From the NCBI GenBank assembly GCA_000739535.1, contig DF820465.1, positions 664,910-703,924 of the forward strand: a stretch of DNA of 39,015 nucleotides, written 5' to 3'. The notes beneath the pieces were generated by a model, which saw only the letters and a program-made list of their open reading frames with translations, made no database searches and was not told the DNA's origin. This document shows positions 6,882 through 19,453 of the stretch, one piece after another. A program made the translations under genes and the position numbers. Each line of letters starts with the position of its first letter. The first letter of the stretch is position 1. Source of the stretch: Candidatus Vecturithrix granuli (GTDB lineage Bacteria > Moduliflexota > Moduliflexia > Moduliflexales > Moduliflexaceae).

Positions 6882-9332
6882 TTAAACCTCAACTTTTTCT
6901 TTTGTCTGCTCCTGCATGGGAACCCCTATTCGGGCGTTCCCCTGTCGAACTCCGTAGTGCGGTAGTTCCCACATAGGAGTGGAGGAATAAAAACTTTTTC
7001 TCCATTCTTGTTGGCCGGAATACTCATGGAATTCAGGGCGATATTCCGGCACAATGTCTTGAAGTTTCTGTTTAATCTTACTGCTATCAAAGGTACGCGA
7101 AACCTCTAAAAGCGACGTTATTTGATCGTGCAGCTTATTCATGTTACTGCCGTTCCCACGCAGCACCATGATTTTTTCATGTTGAGTTTCTACGATGCCT
7201 TCCCCCTGAGTAATCAGCTCTTCATGCAATTTTTCTCCCGGACGTAAGCCTGTAAATCGGATATCAATATCAGTTCCCGGTTCATAACCATGCAGGCGAA
7301 TCAAATCTTGCGCCAGGTCAACAATTTTGACCGGATTACCCATGTCTAACAGAAAAATTTCACCGCCTACGCCCATGGCCGCCGCTTGTAAAATCAGTTG
7401 TGCAGCTTCGGGAATGCTCATAAAATATCTGGTGATCTCAGGATGAGTCACGGTCAAAGGCCCCCCTCGTGCAATTTGCTCCTGAAACAGAGGAATCACA
7501 GAACCTGAACTTCCCAGGACGTTGCCAAAGCGCACGACTATGAAACGGCTGTCAGCATGATTGTTGGCCCCGATCACTAATTGTTCGGCAATGCGTTTCG
7601 TGGCCCCCATGACATTGGTTGGGCGCACAGCTTTATCTGTCGAAACCAGGACAAATTTTTTGACCGCATATTCCTGAGCAAGCTGCAAAAGATTACTCGT
7701 TCCAACGACATTGTTTTTTACCGCCTCCCAGGGTTGGCATTCCTGCATTGGCACATGCTTATATGCCGCTGCATGAAAAATAATCTGCGGATGAAAACTG
7801 CTAAAAACCTGCCTGAGTGTTTCCGGATCGCGTATATCTCGCAGAAATCCGATCGTATTGAGCGATGGAAAACGTTGGGTGCATTCCATTTGAATCCGGA
7901 ACAGGTGAAATTCATTCATGTCAACCAACGCGATGGCTTCGGGAGAAAATCGCGTGATTTGCCGGACGAGTTCGCTGCCGATCGAGCCGCCGGCTCCGGT
8001 CACAAGAATGCGCTTGCCTTGCAGAGTCGCAAAAATCGCCTCTTTATCCAGCCGCACTTCTTCGCGCCCCAATAAATCTTGAATCGTCACTTCGCGCGAC
8101 GCTTTGACCGACAACGTGCCATTAATCAATTCTCCCAGAGAGGGCACTATTCGAAAAGGCTTTCCACTTGCTTCACACAACGCCACAATCCGACGCACCT
8201 GGGCGGCCGTGGCCGACGGAATTGCGATTAAAATCTGATCAAACAACGAGTGAAAATTCTTGATCTGTTCCAGACGATCTAACACTTTGACCCCATGAAT
8301 GCTCATCTCCAATTTTTCCGTATTGTCGTCGAGAAATCCGATCGGATCAAAACGTAAAGAAGGATTCTCAAGAATCTCTCTGACAACTTTTTCTCCGGTA
8401 TTCCCTGCTCCGATAATCAGAAGCCGCGTTCTTGTACTGGCGCTGCGGTGAGAAAAAGACGTGTTGCGGAATTTTTTCTCCCTCTGAGAACAATAGAGGC
8501 GCGTTCCCACGCGCGCTCCGGCAACCAGTAACAAGGTGATCCCCCAATCCAGCATGAACACCGAACGAGGATAACCCTGAAAGCGATAGAGCAGGAGAAT
8601 CACGAGCACAACTCCTAAGCTGCTGACAATGCTGGCTTTCCCGATCTTCAACAAATCTTCAACGCCAGTGTAACGCCATAATCCCTGATAGATGCGGAAA
8701 AAGACAAAGATGGCGATCTTCATGCTCACAACTAACGGCAGCGTGTTGAGAAATGTCATGAACTGCGCAGCTGGAATCTGAAATTCGAATCGTAGCAGAT
8801 ATGACGCATAAAACGCGAGAGTCACAAGAAAAATGTCAATCAAACAGCTTCCCAACCGGATCAGGACGATTTTTTTTCGATCAGGGCAGAAAAGGTTGAG
8901 TAGATCGGGAAAGAGCGATTGGCGCAGATTCTCTGACAGCGTCACGCGAATCGAGGTGCGAAGTCCGCCGATGAACAAAAAAGAGAGTAAACCGTCAATC
9001 AGGAACACCGAACGTGGGTATCCTTCAAATCCGGATACAAGCAGCAAGGCAGTCATAATAACCGCCGTGCTGAGAAGGATTGCTCGCGCGATATTGATCA
9101 CGTCAGCCAGATTGGTATAGCGCCACATTCCATGATAGGCGGAAAATAACGCCAGAATACTGAGTTTCGTGAAAAGCACGAAGGGGAGAGCTTGTAACAT
9201 GGCATTCCTGTGCTGAGGCGGGATTGCCATCTCAAAGCGCAGGGCGTATGCAGCATATAAGGACAAAACACTGAAACACACGTCTGCAAACAGCATGAGA
9301 TAGAAATTTTTATGACGAGGCAAGAGTTTCAT
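6882..9332 (-). CDS. PglF/CapD-type NDP-sugar 4,6-dehydratase with duplicated membrane module
   Basis: An 816-residue membrane enzyme of the WbpM/FlaA1/PglF family, probably UDP-GlcNAc 4,6-dehydratase. A first nucleotide-binding-like domain starts with LLIIGAGNTGE (304-314). The catalytic SDR domain has ILVTGAGGSIG (442-452), S564 in VSTDKA, and M575xxxK579 (VMGATKR), the Met replacing Tyr as usual in this family. The oddity is the N-terminus. The four-helix membrane module occurs twice, at about 14-130 and 155-280, each copy with LRFE, a G-WRYT segment and GYPRSVF. Typical homologues of about 600-650 residues have it once. GGAGG precedes the ATG. The gene ends the long minus-strand run, 327 bases after the aminotransferase gene. 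With the neighbouring PglE-, PglD- and PglC-like genes it suggests di-N-acetylbacillosamine synthesis. Confidence 0.88.
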   Translation of the reverse strand: MKLLPRHKNFYLMLFADVCFSVLSLYAAYALRFEMAIPPQHRNAMLQALPFVLFTKLSILALFSAYHGMWRYTNLADVINIARAILLSTAVIMTALLLVSGFEGYPRSVFLIDGLLSFLFIGGLRTSIRVTLSENLRQSLFPDLLNLFCPDRKKIVLIRLGSCLIDIFLVTLAFYASYLLRFEFQIPAAQFMTFLNTLPLVVSMKIAIFVFFRIYQGLWRYTGVEDLLKIGKASIVSSLGVVLVILLLYRFQGYPRSVFMLDWGITLLLVAGARVGTRLYCSQREKKFRNTSFSHRSASTRTRLLIIGAGNTGEKVVREILENPSLRFDPIGFLDDNTEKLEMSIHGVKVLDRLEQIKNFHSLFDQILIAIPSATAAQVRRIVALCEASGKPFRIVPSLGELINGTLSVKASREVTIQDLLGREEVRLDKEAIFATLQGKRILVTGAGGSIGSELVRQITRFSPEAIALVDMNEFHLFRIQMECTQRFPSLNTIGFLRDIRDPETLRQVFSSFHPQIIFHAAAYKHVPMQECQPWEAVKNNVVGTSNLLQLAQEYAVKKFVLVSTDKAVRPTNVMGATKRIAEQLVIGANNHADSRFIVVRFGNVLGSSGSVIPLFQEQIARGGPLTVTHPEITRYFMSIPEAAQLILQAAAMGVGGEIFLLDMGNPVKIVDLAQDLIRLHGYEPGTDIDIRFTGLRPGEKLHEELITQGEGIVETQHEKIMVLRGNGSNMNKLHDQITSLLEVSRTFDSSKIKQKLQDIVPEYRPEFHEYSGQQEWRKSFYSSTPMWELPHYGVRQGNARIGVPMQEQTKEKVEV

Positions 9333-9491
9333 TCTTGGGCATCCTCCGAACGGAATAAAAAAAGGGTTTTCCTTATTTAGAAACTGTTCTCAGAAAAAGG
9401 TTAAACCCTAAAAACGCCTAACGCCTTATTCTTCTATATGTTAACCGAAATTTATGTGAGGATGACAAAATAGAAGACGGCTACTTGCCTA

Positions 9492-9520: not shown

Positions 9521-9599
9521 ACAACAACGGATGCAAGGAATCAGCGGATGGTTGGACGCACCTCGATGGTATCCGTTGATTCCTGACATCCGTTGTTGT
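9521..9599. repeat. long imperfect hairpin, repeat element or terminator
   Basis: Two 29-base arms, 9521-9549 and 9571-9599, are inverted copies with three mismatches and a 21-base loop. Both carry the word ACAACAACGGATG or its complement. The element lies 60-140 bases past the aminotransferase stop. The stem is far longer than a normal intrinsic terminator and has no U-run, so a mobile palindromic repeat is the better guess. Confidence 0.65.
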
Positions 9600-9659: not shown

Positions 9660-10796
9660 TTAAAGAACTCGCTGAAGGCAGGCAATCACGCGATCCTGAT
9701 CTTCCTCAGTTAAATTTGAGCCAGAAGGCAGGCAAAGGCCCTGTGTAAAAACGGTGGTTGAAAAATCGGCATGTTCTTCATGCGGGTAGTAGAGTGAGCC
9801 TGCAAATACCGGTTGCAGATGGAGAGGTTTCCAAACCGGGCGCCCTTCGATATTCTCTTGTTCGAGCGCATCGAGTACCTGATTGGGCGTCAGCGGGCAG
9901 CGATGCGGATCAAGGGTAAGCACCGTCAGCCACCGGTTTGAGCGTCCGGTGGGCGCTTCAGGCATAAATTCGATTCCGTCACGATTCCCCAACTGTTCAA
10001 CATAGCGGTCGAAAATCCGCCGCCGTTCTGCGATGCGGTCGTCTAGCCAGCGCAGCTGCCCACGCCCGATAGCAGCCAGCACATTACTCAGCCGGTAATT
10101 ATAGCCGATCTCGCTATGCTGGTAGTGCCGCGCCGGGTCTCTGGCCTGGGTGGCCCAGAATCGGCATTTTTCAAGGGCTTCGCGATCATCGGAGACTAAC
10201 ATGCCGCCGCCGGAGGTGTTCAGAATTTTATTGCCGTTGAAGGAATAAATACCAAACGCGCCGAAGGTCCCGCTCGCTTTGCCTTTATAGCTTGCGCCCA
10301 GGGATTCTGCCGCATCTTCAATCACTGGTACGTCGTATTGCTGGCAGAGCGTCAGCAGCGGATCAAAATTCGCGCTTTGCCCATACAGATTGACGATAAT
10401 GACTGCCTTTGGAAATTTGCCTGTCTGCTCAGCGTCTTTAAAGGCTCGTTCTAATGCCAGAGGTGACATATTCCAGGAGTCCGGCTCAGAATCAATAAAA
10501 ATTGGCTCGGCCCCTTGATAGATCACTGGGCAGACGCTGCCAATAAAGGTCAGCGACGAACAAAACACGCAGTCTCCGGGCCCAACTCCGAGATAACGCA
10601 GCGCTAAATGAATGGCGGCCGTGCCGGAGCAGAGCGCTACAGCCCCTTGAATACCCACATATTCCGCAAGCTCGCGTTCGAAAGCATCTACCTGCGGGCC
10701 AAGCGGCGCAATCCAGTTACTGACAAAGGCCTCGGTCACCAATTGTTGTTCATATTTCCCAATATGAGGGGGAGAAAGATAAATTCGTTTTTGCAT
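9660..10796 (-). CDS. DegT/DnrJ/EryC1-type sugar aminotransferase (PglE-like)
   Basis: A 378-residue PLP-dependent aminotransferase that would aminate a 4-keto-6-deoxy nucleotide sugar. It starts IYLSPPHIGKYEQQ, and the AFVSNWIAPLGPQVDAFE segment is typical of the PglE/EpsN branch. The PLP lysine is K190 in SFNGNKILNTSGGG, and D161 of IEDAAES should bind the pyridine nitrogen. The C-terminal EGRPVWKPLHLQPVF is also family-typical. AAGG lies about 7 bases before the ATG. The likely substrate is UDP-2-acetamido-2,6-dideoxy-4-keto-glucose from the PglF-like enzyme encoded next, and the product would go to the PglD-like acetyltransferase. It is separated from both partners by unusually long gaps for this locus. 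Confidence 0.9.
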   Translation of the reverse strand: MQKRIYLSPPHIGKYEQQLVTEAFVSNWIAPLGPQVDAFERELAEYVGIQGAVALCSGTAAIHLALRYLGVGPGDCVFCSSLTFIGSVCPVIYQGAEPIFIDSEPDSWNMSPLALERAFKDAEQTGKFPKAVIIVNLYGQSANFDPLLTLCQQYDVPVIEDAAESLGASYKGKASGTFGAFGIYSFNGNKILNTSGGGMLVSDDREALEKCRFWATQARDPARHYQHSEIGYNYRLSNVLAAIGRGQLRWLDDRIAERRRIFDRYVEQLGNRDGIEFMPEAPTGRSNRWLTVLTLDPHRCPLTPNQVLDALEQENIEGRPVWKPLHLQPVFAGSLYYPHEEHADFSTTVFTQGLCLPSGSNLTEEDQDRVIACLQRVL

Positions 10797-11171: not shown

Positions 11172-11807
11172 TCAAGTTATTTTTTTCATTCTGGCGGGGA
11201 TCCCGACGACCGTGACACCATCGGGGACGTCGTTAATCACGGTTGCGCCCGCGCCGACCGTGACATCTGAGCCGATCCGAATATTAGGAATAATCACGGC
11301 GCCTGCGCCAATTAAGGTGCGCTCACCGACCGTCACGCCGCCGCACAGTCGAACTCCCGGCGCGATATGTGTCAGATTCCCCACCGCACAATCGTGATCA
11401 ACGGAGGCCGCGGTATTGATAATGACGTGTTCGCCAATGGTCGTATCCGCGTTGATGACCGCGCTAGCCATGACAACCGTACCATGTCCGATAACAACGC
11501 CCCTGGAAACAGAGGCCGACGGATGAAGCGCACGCCCGAAATCAACACCGCGGTCGCTCAGAATCCTACTCACGCGATGCCGGATGTCATTATGACCTAT
11601 AGCGATGATCATTTTCATTTCATGACCGTCTAACGCAGCTAAGCCGCCGATGACCTTATACCCGAACACTTCTTGTCCCCAGAGGATGTGATTATCATCG
11701 AATAACCCGCCGATGACATAACGTCCTTCGCGCTCGATAATATCAATGACCACTTTGGCGTGGCCGCTTGCCCCGAAAAGATAACATGTTTCTTGCTGCG
11801 TTTTCAT
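11172..11807 (-). CDS. pglD: PglD/NeuD-type sugar N-acetyltransferase
   Basis: I chose the ATG at 11807 (211 residues, MKTQQETCYLFGASGHAKVV). It gives the canonical start of the PglD N-terminal domain, and TAGGAA precedes it, overlapping the stop of the PglC-like gene. The N-terminal Rossmann-like part binds the nucleotide sugar. From about residue 95 on, hexapeptide repeats form a left-handed beta helix (IGHGTVV, IGEHVIIN, IGSDVTVG). H138 in ASVDHDC is the probable catalytic base. The reaction expected is acetyl-CoA-dependent N-acetylation of the UDP-4-amino sugar to UDP-di-N-acetylbacillosamine. The gap to the PglC-like gene is 11 bases. O-acetyltransferases share this fold, but the neighbours favour the bacillosamine role. 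Confidence 0.87.
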   Translation of the reverse strand: MKTQQETCYLFGASGHAKVVIDIIEREGRYVIGGLFDDNHILWGQEVFGYKVIGGLAALDGHEMKMIIAIGHNDIRHRVSRILSDRGVDFGRALHPSASVSRGVVIGHGTVVMASAVINADTTIGEHVIINTAASVDHDCAVGNLTHIAPGVRLCGGVTVGERTLIGAGAVIIPNIRIGSDVTVGAGATVINDVPDGVTVVGIPARMKKIT

Positions 11808-11818
11808 GCGAATATTTC

Positions 11819-12439
11819 CTAAAGATTGTACCCGCGAAATTCTTCCATTGTGGCCTGTCCTGGCTGATTGATGCCTTCCCGCTTGATCACGTGTACAAAC
11901 GTGAGGAACAAAATTTTTATGTCTAACCAGAGCGACCAATTGTCCACATACCAGATGTCATACGCGAACTTTTCTTCCCAGGAAAGGGCGTTGCGGCCGT
12001 TAATTTGCGCCCAGCCCGTAACGCCTGGTTTGACCTCATGCCTGCGCATTTGTTCCGGGGTGTACCGTTCCAGATATTGCACCAGCAGTGGGCGCGGCCC
12101 GACTAAACTCATGTCCCCTTTCAGCACGTTCCAGAGTTCCGGCAGTTCATCCAGCGACGCGGCGCGTAAAAACTTGCCAAAAGGCGTCAAGCGTTCGGCG
12201 TCCGGAAGCAAGTGCCCCTGTTCGTCGCGCCGGTCCGTCATGGTGCGAAATTTGTACATAGTAAACGGTTTACCGTGTAATCCCGGGCGAACTTGACAAA
12301 AAATCGTTGGACAATCTAACTTCACACGTATCAGTAAGAGAATCAGTAACATCACTGGCCATAATAGAAATATCGCAGGAATTACCACTACCAGATCCAC
12401 CAAACGTTTCACCATCTGGAGTTGTTTCCTGGGGTTCAT
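11819..12439 (-). CDS. pglC: PglC-type phosphoglycosyltransferase (initiating sugar transferase)
   Basis: 206 residues from the ATG at 12439, which overlaps the preceding glycosyltransferase stop as ATGA. It is a small monotopic phosphoglycosyltransferase of the bacterial sugar transferase family. It has one N-terminal membrane segment (about 12-36), KFRTM at 63-67, the catalytic Asp-Glu dyad D97-E98 in SLDELPELWN, GDMSLVGPRPL at 108-118 and KPGVTGWAQINGRN. It has no extra N-terminal helices, unlike WcaJ/WbaP, so it matches PglC in size. It would move phospho-sugar, probably di-N-acetylbacillosamine phosphate, onto undecaprenyl phosphate at the inner membrane and so start the repeat unit. The sugar identity is inferred from the neighbouring genes. 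Confidence 0.9.
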   Translation of the reverse strand: MNPRKQLQMVKRLVDLVVVIPAIFLLWPVMLLILLLIRVKLDCPTIFCQVRPGLHGKPFTMYKFRTMTDRRDEQGHLLPDAERLTPFGKFLRAASLDELPELWNVLKGDMSLVGPRPLLVQYLERYTPEQMRRHEVKPGVTGWAQINGRNALSWEEKFAYDIWYVDNWSLWLDIKILFLTFVHVIKREGINQPGQATMEEFRGYNL

Positions 12440-15125: not shown

Positions 15126-17321
15126 CTATATTGTCAGATGTTCCTGAAAATCCCTTGTTTTAAAACTCGCTTGTGTCATGATACTTTGCAAACCAGGAGG
15201 ATGCAATATCAGCATCAGTTCAATCGCGTCATCTAAAATATGAAGATGCGTTGCAGATACCGAGAGTCGGCGCATGAGATCTGCCGGAACAAAAATACTG
15301 AATACACGACAGGGAACTGCCGCTTTTGTCGTGAGCCTGAGAGACAGAGCCGGAAAACGTACCCCGTAATACGGAGCATGCCAGCCACGAGGCGCGCGCT
15401 CTTCTGCGCCGCGTAAGAGGTTTATATGGATAGGAGGGGATTCCGGATCACACACGCCGACCAGAACGCCATACCTCTCTGTTCCAATTTGAAGAAGAAC
15501 ATGCCGGGATTGCGGCTCGATCTGATATGGCAAATCTGCAAGCAGCCAATGTAGTGTAAATTCATGCTCCCCCATTCCGAGTAAATCATCAAACACGATC
15601 CATATATCCGCCGCCGACATAAGTACAGCTCGACGATGAATGACAGGAGCTTCTAAGCGGGCATACCCATCATGTTCTCCTTCAAAATACGTCAGGGCCT
15701 GCGTGGATGAAACGCTAAAATGGCGAACGGTTGAAGTAAGCCAGGGAAACCACAAAAAACGCGGACCTCGCGTCATTTGATCTTGTCTATCTACCATCAA
15801 CGTGTTATGGACTGCTGTCGTAACCAACGCATTATTCCATGGTGGAGAAGCGTTGTAGAGATAAGACCCAGGATCACACGCAATATTTATCCCTTTACGC
15901 CAGATATCCAGGTGGAGCATATCAGCTTGCGACGGACGATTCTCAAACGTTGCACAGCGAATCATCCCCCATGAGGCGTCGCCTCGCAAGGTGTAATATC
16001 CACCGATCTCAGTTCCCCATGATTTTCTGGGAACTTGCTTTATCGGTTGTTTTAAAGCCTCAACGCCGAACATCCAGAACAAATCTTCGTCCCACAATCC
16101 CTTTTCATAAAGACGTGTCCGGGTAAATAGATAATGAATGCTGTTTAAAACAGGGCGAAAGTCTCTATAATCACAGCTATTGAGCGGAAGAATAAAAGCG
16201 CCATCATTTGCTCCGTAATTGGGAACACCGCCGGTCTCCTGATCCTGAAGTTGATAAAGAAATTCCCCGGCCTGCCGAACCCGATCTAATAATTTTTGCG
16301 AAAACCCGTATCCATGCAGTTTCCCGAGTCGTATCGCCCATGCGAATAGATGCAGCATCACGCGATGGTAATTCGTTGAGTGTTGAATGTACGACCCATC
16401 AGCTTGAATCTGAAACATTCCTTCGGATTCCAAAATTTTGCGCCCCGTTTCACGCCAACGACTCGCTGCTTTTAGTTGGGGAAATAACAGCCCGACAGTC
16501 CACAGCCCGACGCCTTCACTTAACGCATGATTATTTTGTTGCAGGTGCGCATACAAGTGATCAGCCTCGACCCTCGCTGCCTGCGCAGCAATCATCCCTA
16601 CCAGCCAGGCAACTCGTTCAGCGCTTGTCACGGAAGCCTCGGCAAAAGCATAGAGCGCAAATGCCCACGCCATGATTCGCAGCGAAATCTCCTGCCCACA
16701 CTTCCAATGCGCTCCCCTGTTGGGAGGGTTCGCCTCGCGCCAACTGTCGAGTATTTGCCAAAAAATTTCGGCGAACTCTTCTTTGCCGCTGATCCAATAC
16801 GCTCGCGCCAACAGGTAGCTAAAGGCAAATCTCCCGGGTTCCCAGATATATTTCAGATCTCCATATATCGGGGAGTACATCGCAATATGGCTCCAGTGGA
16901 CATTGAGCGGAGCATGGCCGCCGGTAAACGGATTGACATGCCACTCAGGCGGAAATCCAAGATGAGCATTTTGCCTGGAAAAATACGGGAATATTCCTTT
17001 TTGGATCACCTCAGCCTCTTGAATAACATGCGCTGCCTTCCTCTCTCCCCAAATATTGTGTAACGTCTGCCGCGATTGCGTTCTCTGTTGCGGAGCAAAA
17101 AAGAAGTGCGGACGATGGTGCTGCCACTCCTCATAAAACGCCTGTGAAGAAGGCGGCACATCTGGCTTCAACCAATGAGCTAACTCATTGTCACGCCATG
17201 GGCGTTGTCGAAAACGAAACGCATGCCAACCTGAACGTAACTGACATTCATAGAAGGCGCGTAATAGCACCCATTTTAGGCCATAGCTTCGAATAAGTTG
17301 GGAAAGAAATTCTATTTGCAT
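15126..17321 (-). CDS. heparinase II/III-type polysaccharide lyase-like protein
   Basis: A 731-residue two-domain protein. The N-terminal half (about 100-350) is a helical toroid of the heparinase II/III N-terminal type, with FSYLLARAYWISGKEEFAEI, GAHWKCGQEISLRIMAW and QNNHALSEGVGLW. The second half is the beta-sandwich heparinase domain with ADMLHLDIWRKGINIACDPG and HNTLMVDRQDQ. Relatives cleave or modify uronic-acid polymers. Many such genes sit in exopolysaccharide loci beside a bi-domain oxidoreductase, as here (10-base overlap). No signal peptide is evident at the N-terminus (MQIEFLSQLIRSYGLKWV), so export is unclear. It may trim, epimerise or degrade the AlgD-derived polymer; activity is unproven. 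Confidence 0.82.
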   Translation of the reverse strand: MQIEFLSQLIRSYGLKWVLLRAFYECQLRSGWHAFRFRQRPWRDNELAHWLKPDVPPSSQAFYEEWQHHRPHFFFAPQQRTQSRQTLHNIWGERKAAHVIQEAEVIQKGIFPYFSRQNAHLGFPPEWHVNPFTGGHAPLNVHWSHIAMYSPIYGDLKYIWEPGRFAFSYLLARAYWISGKEEFAEIFWQILDSWREANPPNRGAHWKCGQEISLRIMAWAFALYAFAEASVTSAERVAWLVGMIAAQAARVEADHLYAHLQQNNHALSEGVGLWTVGLLFPQLKAASRWRETGRKILESEGMFQIQADGSYIQHSTNYHRVMLHLFAWAIRLGKLHGYGFSQKLLDRVRQAGEFLYQLQDQETGGVPNYGANDGAFILPLNSCDYRDFRPVLNSIHYLFTRTRLYEKGLWDEDLFWMFGVEALKQPIKQVPRKSWGTEIGGYYTLRGDASWGMIRCATFENRPSQADMLHLDIWRKGINIACDPGSYLYNASPPWNNALVTTAVHNTLMVDRQDQMTRGPRFLWFPWLTSTVRHFSVSSTQALTYFEGEHDGYARLEAPVIHRRAVLMSAADIWIVFDDLLGMGEHEFTLHWLLADLPYQIEPQSRHVLLQIGTERYGVLVGVCDPESPPIHINLLRGAEERAPRGWHAPYYGVRFPALSLRLTTKAAVPCRVFSIFVPADLMRRLSVSATHLHILDDAIELMLILHPPGLQSIMTQASFKTRDFQEHLTI

Positions 17322-19453
17322 TCTGAGCTCAATTCCAATGTGACGCGCATCACCTCGACGATTTCCTCAAAAGGAATTGGCGCTGCGCCGCCCTGTTCAA
17401 TCGCTTCAATAAAACGTTGCATTTCCTGATGATGCCCTTTATCCTGCCGCCAGAGTTTCATCTGATGAAATGTTTTCCATCCATATCCCCGAAGGGTTTT
17501 GAAATTATCAAGCTGCAAAATTTTCCCGGCGCCGAAGACTTCTAAATGTTCTTTGGAAAACCCTTTATTGCCGTTGGTAAAATAATGAATTGTTCCAATG
17601 GAACCATCTGCAAAAGTGAATTGAAGGCTGACCGTCTCCTCACCCTTTTTGTTGAGCCTGATCAGACTATAATGTCCAAAGTGATGACCAGCCAAAAATC
17701 TAAGCAGATCAATAAAATGACATGCTTCGCCAAGAATGCGGCCTCCCCCGATATGGGGATCATGATTCCAATGTTCAGGAGGCAGAGAACCGGCATTGAC
17801 TGTCAGAATAAAACTTTTCGGTTCGTAAATCGTTGAGAGTAAGGTTTTCAACTTCACAATATGGGGAGCAAAACGACGATTAAAGCCGACCATAAGAAGA
17901 GGAGGAGAAGTTGAGAAGTTGAGAAGTTGAGAAGTTATGGAATCAAGCTCCTCTAACGTTAAACATAATGGTTTTTCGACAAAGACGTGTTTTCCGGCTT
18001 CCAGGGCCTGGAGGACAAATTGGGCATGGGTATTATGGCGGGTGGTGATGAATACGGTCGTAATCTCCGCGTCGGCAAAGATGCGCTCGACATCGGTAGT
18101 GCTGCGTTCAAAACCGAACTTTTTGCCCAAATGCGTTCCGGTCACGCCTTTGCTCGACGCAATGGTTTTCAGGCGCGCTCCGGTCTGTTGCAATGCAGGC
18201 AGCAACACCTGCCCTGCAAAATTCCCGGAACCGATGACGCCGGCCACAATGGATGTGTTCGCCGCGCAGGGACGCGAAGGAGCGCGAAGCTCAATAGTTT
18301 TCTCAACAAGGAGCGAGGATGTCTGCGAAGCCTTGTCAGATTGATATTGAAGAAGAATGCCGGTATAGGGTTCCGTGTTCTCACCGATCAACTTATACGC
18401 TTTTTCTGCTTCCTCGAAAGGCAAACGATGACTGATCAACGACTTGACATCGAGCTTGCCTGAAGCCATCAAATCCAGCACGGCCTCGAAGTTGCGTTGT
18501 GCTGTCCAACGTACGTAACCTATCGGATAATCATGGCCTTTCTCCTCATATTCCGGATCATAACGCCCCGGCCCATAAGAGCAAGAAACCTGGAAGGATA
18601 ATTCTTTTTCATACAAATCGGAACGTTTCAATTCCAGGCCGGCCATGCCAACCAGGACAATTCGTCCTCGTTTGCGGCACATCTGGGCAGCCTGATGGAC
18701 AGGTTCGCTGCTTGTCGTCGCGGCGGTAATTAGGACGCCATCGGCCCCTCGTCCGCCGGAACAGGACAGAACAGCAGCAAGCGGGTCTCCTCCCAGGGAA
18801 AGATCAACAACGGTCGCTCCGAATTTTTGAGCTAACAAGCCTTTGGCCGGATCTATATCCACCCCTAAGACCTGACATCCGGCCGCATGTAACATTTGCA
18901 CGGTCAACAAACCGATCAACCCAAGTCCGATAACAACAAAGGTCTCCCCTACAGAGGGATTGGCCAGTCGAATCCCCTGCAACCCGATTGCGCTGACCAC
19001 CGTAAAACTTGCATCTTCCTCACTTACATGGTTCGGAATACGAACGCATAAATTCCGAGGGACGCAAACAACTTCGGCATGAGGGCCATTGCTGATCACG
19101 CGCTCCCCTTTCAGCAACCTTTCCTGGAAATTGCTCGCCTGGCATTCAAGTACGGTTCCGACATGGCAGTACCCGAGCGCGAGGGGTTGATCGAGTTTGG
19201 CGCGCACAGCATCTATGGTAGGGAGCAATCCATCGGTTTTGATCTTCTCAAGAACCTGTCGGACTTTCTCCGGCTGCTGTTTCGCCTTCTGAAGATAATT
19301 ACCCCGGCTAAATTCGACTAACATGCGTTCTGTTCCGGCCGAAATCAAGGTGTGGGTGGTTTTGATGAGCAGATGTCCCGGCTTCGCTTGAGGCGCAGGG
19401 ATTTCAACAAGTTCGGTGCGCCCGGTTTTCAGGTTTTGCAAAATCTGTTTCAT
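17312..19453 (-). CDS. bi-domain oxidoreductase: zinc-free alcohol dehydrogenase plus Gfo/Idh/MocA
   Basis: A 713-residue fusion. Residues 1 to about 370 form an MDR-type dehydrogenase with HTLISAGTERMLVEFSRGN, LGYCHVGTVLE, and the nucleotide motif VIGLGLIGLLTVQM. The usual GHE zinc motif is absent. From about residue 405 a Gfo/Idh/MocA domain follows: GVIGSGNFAGQVLLPAL, VFVEKPLCLT and MVGFNRRFAPH. Such fusions recur next to heparinase-like genes in polysaccharide loci, but their reaction is not established; a role in sugar oxidation or epimerisation is a guess. The segment between EKPLCLT and MVGFNRR is encoded in part by a 4 x 8-base tandem repeat (17905-17936). The gene overlaps the heparinase gene by 10 bases. 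Confidence 0.87.
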   Translation of the reverse strand: MKQILQNLKTGRTELVEIPAPQAKPGHLLIKTTHTLISAGTERMLVEFSRGNYLQKAKQQPEKVRQVLEKIKTDGLLPTIDAVRAKLDQPLALGYCHVGTVLECQASNFQERLLKGERVISNGPHAEVVCVPRNLCVRIPNHVSEEDASFTVVSAIGLQGIRLANPSVGETFVVIGLGLIGLLTVQMLHAAGCQVLGVDIDPAKGLLAQKFGATVVDLSLGGDPLAAVLSCSGGRGADGVLITAATTSSEPVHQAAQMCRKRGRIVLVGMAGLELKRSDLYEKELSFQVSCSYGPGRYDPEYEEKGHDYPIGYVRWTAQRNFEAVLDLMASGKLDVKSLISHRLPFEEAEKAYKLIGENTEPYTGILLQYQSDKASQTSSLLVEKTIELRAPSRPCAANTSIVAGVIGSGNFAGQVLLPALQQTGARLKTIASSKGVTGTHLGKKFGFERSTTDVERIFADAEITTVFITTRHNTHAQFVLQALEAGKHVFVEKPLCLTLEELDSITSQLLNFSTSPPLLMVGFNRRFAPHIVKLKTLLSTIYEPKSFILTVNAGSLPPEHWNHDPHIGGGRILGEACHFIDLLRFLAGHHFGHYSLIRLNKKGEETVSLQFTFADGSIGTIHYFTNGNKGFSKEHLEVFGAGKILQLDNFKTLRGYGWKTFHQMKLWRQDKGHHQEMQRFIEAIEQGGAAPIPFEEIVEVMRVTLELSSECK
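17905..17936 (+). repeat. tandem repeat, 4 copies of GAGAAGTT, inside a coding region
   Basis: Four perfect copies of the 8-mer GAGAAGTT lie back to back, followed by ATGG. They are within the Gfo/Idh/MocA half of the bi-domain oxidoreductase, where the protein reads SQLLNFSTSPPLL. Because 8 is not a multiple of 3, gain or loss of one copy would shift the frame. Confidence 0.9.

Follow-up and report, generated by a model that had tools for sequence, protein, structure and literature searches.

A four-helix membrane module followed by a Rossmann-like DUF is common to large phosphoglycosyl transferases, PglF-type dehydratases and some WecA-type enzymes, and the conservation of bundle and DUF across functionally unrelated enzymes was termed puzzling in the paper on the structure of WbaP (PMC10942596). 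WbaP is a dimer whose stalk consists of two bundles of four transmembrane helices (TMH), and its N-terminal domains are shared with PglF (PMC10942596). In the Salmonella enterica enzyme (8t53) and other large monotopic phosphoglycosyl transferases, the bundle and the PF13727 DUF accompany a sugar-phosphate transferase catalytic domain, with one bundle per chain, paired in the homodimer. WecA-type transferases (L007, L010, L097 and others; 22 rows in our survey) serve a polyprenyl-phosphate pathway and carry the same membrane module with the DUF, placed C-terminal to a polytopic GlcNAc-1-P transferase and without a dehydratase domain. The PglF/CapD/EpsC dehydratases, of which Campylobacter jejuni PglF is an example, have one four-TM module ahead of the DUF and the SDR domain and are about 590–690 aa long; truncated C. 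jejuni PglF (delta1-130) is active (PMC10653937). Here we describe an 816-aa protein encoded in a 39,015-nt stretch of the genome of Candidatus Vecturithrix granuli (the window). It has the same DUF, SDR domain and motifs as these dehydratases, its closest relatives in our survey being L182 and L186, and it shares the four-TMH bundle and PF13727 DUF with WbaP, but it has two four-TM modules rather than one.

A PglF-type dehydratase with a tandem membrane module

The reading frame is intact and uninterrupted and starts with an ATG at position 9332, 10 nt downstream of a GGAGG ribosome-binding-type sequence, which supports a start that takes in the first module, copy 1 (Table 1). The protein matches PF02719 (Polysacc_synt_2) with 396.8 bits (E 7e-119), including the NAD-binding GxxGxxG and the DK...MGxxK catalytic region, and its SDR domain has the motifs TGAGGSIGSEL (at residue 445), STDKAVRPTNVMGATKR (at 564) and GLRPGEK. 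A further match to PF13727 (44.5 bits) gives copy 2 and the DUF the bundle-then-Rossmann-DUF layout that is usual for the PglF/CapD/EpsC type. The closest PDB chains are those of C. jejuni PglF (WlaL; 5bju–5bjy), and together these matches confirm the PglF/CapD-type assignment proposed when the sequence was first read. The PF02397 (Bac_transf) domain that would mark a large monotopic phosphoglycosyl transferase is absent from the protein. Its two modules depart from the usual one-module layout, which is not a strict requirement of the family, since fused variants exist.

Table 1. Coordinates of the dehydratase gene, its parts and its neighbours within the window
Feature	Position	Strand	Evidence
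PglF/CapD/EpsC-type UDP-GlcNAc 4,6-dehydratase, 816 aa, two N-terminal four-TM modules	6882..9332	-	
SDR dehydratase domain, PF02719, residues 438-730	7143..8021	-	domain match, motifs
Rossmann-like DUF, PF13727/CoA_binding_3 region, residues 298-437	8022..8441	-	domain match; 3nkl Z 18.9
Copy 2, four-TM module, residues 157-286	8475..8864	-	alignment, AlphaFold, HMM
Inter-copy linker, residues 137-156	8865..8924	-	sequence comparison
Copy 1, four-TM module, residues 9-136	8925..9308	-	alignment, AlphaFold, HMM, WbaP match
GGAGG ribosome-binding-type sequence, 10 nt 5' of ATG	9343..9347	-	sequence
DegT/DnrJ aminotransferase, PglE-like	9660..10796	-	domain match
PglD-like N-acetyltransferase, PglD_N and hexapeptide repeats	11172..11939	-	domain match
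Small PglC-like phosphoglycosyl transferase, Bac_transf PF02397	11819..12559	-	domain match

The first 286 residues, slightly more than the 280 originally noted, contain the same four-helix unit twice. Copy 1 and copy 2 are 36% identical over 122 residues with zero gaps (BLASTP, E 1e-28), and their Smith-Waterman score of 237 compares with a mean of 31.8 (sd 5.6) and a maximum of 59 in 1000 shuffles. The three motifs that had drawn attention to the repeat are present in each copy: LRFE at residues 31–34 and 180–183, GMWRYT at 68–73 and its counterpart GLWRYT at 217–222, and GYPRSVF at 104–110 and 253–259. At the DNA level the copies align in two stretches only, each of about 30 bases, and because they barely align we judge from the sequence that they are old or fast-evolving and are neither a recent nor an assembly repeat. 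An assembly duplicate, which the sequence-only reading had also dismissed, is ruled out by the low DNA identity and the single open frame. With a module HMM that was built without either copy, the two score 119.7 and 135.4 bits, compared with a median of 118.6 across 185 other modules. Copy 2 retains all 14 near-invariant family positions and copy 1 retains 13 of 14, the remaining one being a conservative change from L to V. Since these residues are kept and the HMM scores are typical despite the large divergence, both copies look constrained, implying purifying selection.

In an AlphaFold model of residues 1–437 (mean pLDDT 83.6, pTM 0.67), eight membrane-length helices are predicted in two groups of four (6–32, 39–62, 75–98 and 107–134 in copy 1; 152–181, 188–211, 224–249 and 256–295 in copy 2), followed by the Rossmann domain. 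This agrees with the eight-helix scaffold envisaged earlier; the predicted topology of the anchor is N-in/C-in. Few rows of that model's alignment cover copy 1, which was therefore modelled separately with a 43-row alignment, again giving four predicted helices (pLDDT 87.6, pTM 0.80). Structurally, the copy 1 model fits best to the four-helix bundle of S. enterica WbaP (8t53, residues 7–143; Z 12.4, with an rmsd of 2.9 across 126 residues), and the next row has a Z of 8.0. Z values below about 13 are to be read with caution for helical bundles, and a first pass with Foldseek gave WbaP no high rank. The match is supported by sequence homology and by the domain relationship between WbaP and PglF (PMC10942596). 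Copy 2 and the DUF, modelled together, match residues 9–243 of WbaP.

Distribution of two-module dehydratases

Our survey of 1220 genome slots (some genomes occurring more than once), combined with a genome-wide contig scan, yielded 144 distinct PglF-type module ORFs, a sample that is no estimate of frequency because it is enriched for long ORFs, and in which badly diverged modules were incompletely detected. The 816-aa protein is alone among the 144 in having two PglF-type modules, which rules out within this set that the tandem is common in the family. No second PglF-type module was found in its closest relatives; an alignment scan of the contigs returned 80 relatives, none with a homotypic tandem, and a single-protein scan of the genome contigs found no close relative. 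A Legionella plasmid match (H1) with 90% query coverage proved to be a single-copy protein, and the long frame of L055 to include an upstream non-coding frame. We did not find a tandem module described in the literature. The tandem is thus real and rare, and it extends an already known family.

The statement in the sequence-only reading that known members carry the module once is only partly right: six other dehydratases, from Zixiibacteriota and other lineages (L060, also represented by L096, and L061, L062, L103, L108 and L118; frames of 767–826 aa), likewise place two four-TM modules ahead of their DUF and SDR domain. None of the first modules of these six scores above about 23 bits; the GxWRY...D residues have been lost from them, and they fall with the modules of large phosphoglycosyl transferases of the WbaP/WcaJ type (support 97). 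Because their first module is of this transferase type, the six are, on sequence grounds, heterologous fusions and make up a recurring fusion class, revealing a second route to two-module dehydratases. Copy 1 of the 816-aa protein, in contrast, lies in the PglF clade, which rules out its derivation from a large-transferase module, and both of its copies are PglF-type modules by HMM rather than one of them being an unrelated membrane protein joined by fusion.

Several other arrangements were seen in the survey. In L067, a dehydratase frame of 741 aa, the N-terminus is extended by several hydrophobic helices, which look unrelated to the module and have no match to its HMM. L056 (918 aa) joins a PglF-type dehydratase to a C-terminal transferase resembling the large phosphoglycosyl transferases, the reverse of the order in L021 and L054, in which a PglC-type domain lies N-terminal to a PglF-type dehydratase; the 951-aa frame L065 has a module closely related to that of L056. 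In L063 and L054, as read from their sequences, the PglF-type dehydratase is followed by a C-terminal receiver domain of the response-regulator kind, reminiscent of EpsW, whose receiver activates the transferase EpsZ (PMC12802240). Fusions of the four-TM module and DUF to WecA/GT4-type enzymes (L007, L008, L010, L011, L023, L097–L102 and others) are common in Nitrospirota and also occur in same-order relatives of the host genome.

Origin of the two copies

The catalytic half of the protein groups with L093, L094, L182, L186 and L188 (support 100/100), and L182 is 63% identical to it in this half and 58% identical across residues 166–766. Copy 1 independently groups with the same five proteins in two trees (support 95/81 and 85/95), and its homology to the single-copy L182 spans residues 9–161, taking in the linker and reaching the first Rossmann strand; the linker at 137–156 is similar to the Rossmann-entry linker of single-copy relatives (VFP..DRK). 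Because it shares its relatives with the catalytic half and resembles L182 through the linker, copy 1 looks like the original N-terminus of the enzyme. In trees of 147, 51 and 36 rows, copy 2 falls outside the copy 1 group, either as a long branch or at a base that is not resolved. The phylogeny of the two copies, proposed earlier as a check, therefore places copy 1 among the proteins related to the catalytic half but does not group the copies with each other.

These placements leave two accounts of copy 2 to be weighed. It is possible that the module was duplicated internally and that copy 2 then changed faster: approximately unbiased (AU) tests do not reject the copies as sisters (p 0.36 and 0.17) or copy 2 within the copy 1 group (p 0.37 and 0.20). 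Alternatively, copy 2 may have been recombined in from another PglF-like gene, which would make the protein a homologous fusion, and we regard this as a real if somewhat doubtful possibility. It would explain why copy 2 falls outside the relatives that copy 1 shares with the catalytic half, and why each copy is nearer to L094, L182 and L186 (42–47%) than to the other copy (35%). Module swapping is also common, large-transferase modules being found before PglF and modules after WecA. The same AU tests count against capture, however, as both alternative placements pass; in addition, no donor gene was found, and the three other genes with PF13727 in the genome belong to the large phosphoglycosyl-transferase type. 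Of the earlier proposal of an old duplication, the homology and divergence of the copies stand, whereas their sister origin does not follow from the trees.

An artefact of assembly or gene calling is extremely improbable. The genome bin has an estimated contamination of 10.75% and the gene lacks confirmation by a second genome, but it reads as one unbroken frame behind a good ribosome-binding sequence, GC content is uniform between the copies (0.48 and 0.485), there is no DNA-level repeat, and the contig extends over at least 704 kb. As for the gene as a whole, its relatives are in other phyla and, in the three nearest genomes, from the same order, none of the best six candidates scored reached E <= 1e-60 for PF02719; it is therefore likely, judging from these comparisons, that it arrived horizontally.

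Role of the second bundle and its genomic context

Homologues of pglE, pglD and pglC lie directly upstream of the dehydratase gene in the same orientation, and other genes of the cluster encode glycosyl transferases, a Wzz/tyrosine-kinase protein and a protein with a Wzy-type ligase domain. The locus is a Wzx/Wzy-type exopolysaccharide cluster with a branch whose putative sugar is UDP-diNAcBac. From its motifs and these neighbours, the 816-aa protein would be an NAD-dependent UDP-GlcNAc 4,6-dehydratase that converts UDP-GlcNAc to a 4-keto-6-deoxy sugar, step 1 toward UDP-diNAcBac, and together with the PglE, PglD and PglC homologues it would feed a polyprenyl-phosphate-linked exopolysaccharide pathway.

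We postulate that the ancestral enzyme had a single WbaP-like four-helix bundle, then the Rossmann DUF, then the SDR domain. In the 816-aa protein a second PglF-type bundle lies between this first one and the DUF, giving a predicted eight-helix anchor. Because truncated PglF is active, the extra bundle should not serve chemistry and would most likely act in membrane assembly. The stalk of the WbaP dimer is a pair of bundles, so one chain with two bundles could supply the pair alone; the two bundles may pair within the chain as the WbaP stalk does between chains, fixing or stabilising an oligomer. A dehydratase with intrachain-paired bundles that aid membrane assembly is our best explanation, which we offer tentatively, as its pairing, substrate and function are all deduced indirectly. 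Against it, the trees do not unite copy 2 with copy 1, and close single-copy relatives manage without a second bundle. The more specific idea that the two PglF-type bundles reproduce the two-chain stalk of WbaP as an intrachain pseudo-dimer, a natural covalent-dimer variant, is conceivable but rather doubtful.

It is also conceivable that the extra bundle is a docking platform to which the PglC-type transferase, or another membrane enzyme, is recruited and which channels UDP-4-keto-sugar products to the membrane step, as the sequence-only reading had suggested in part. The PglC homologue encoded nearby is a small, separate transferase that has no bundle of its own, and both direct PglC–PglF fusions (L021, L054) and modules fused to WecA-type transferases occur elsewhere. 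The intervening PglE and PglD steps are carried out by soluble enzymes, however, so that channelling to PglC would be indirect, and the existence of close single-copy relatives also counts against docking, which we consider unlikely. Because the tandem was seen in one genome only, it could instead be a lineage-specific accident, and an extra bundle that is merely tolerated as a spare anchor with no specific role would fit both this restriction and the long end branches of the two copies (1.0–1.5 changes per site). Such neutrality is disfavoured because both copies are constrained, keeping nearly all invariant polar residues as well as typical module scores, and it too seems improbable. A doubled module with polar residues kept in both copies amounts to a natural experiment, and suggests a role for the four-helix bundle beyond anchoring. 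The copies could be deleted or mutated one at a time, and if the bundles do form a pseudo-dimer, their separate mutation would offer a way to ask what this widespread module does.

Two further features of the window were noted. Between the pglE- and pglF-like genes, at 9521–9599, lies a palindrome with 29-nt arms (90% complementary) and a 21-nt loop. A search of the genome gave 34 matches on many contigs, some of them both strands of one palindrome and including a tightly spaced group at G000:C14:36926-37034, and on the basis of these dispersed matches it looks like a REP/MITE-type element. The 713-aa protein encoded at 17312–19453 has NCBIfam matches to zinc-type alcohol dehydrogenase families over the first half of its length and to Gfo/Idh oxidoreductase families over the rest; this fused two-enzyme gene adjoins a heparinase-like gene (15126–17321).
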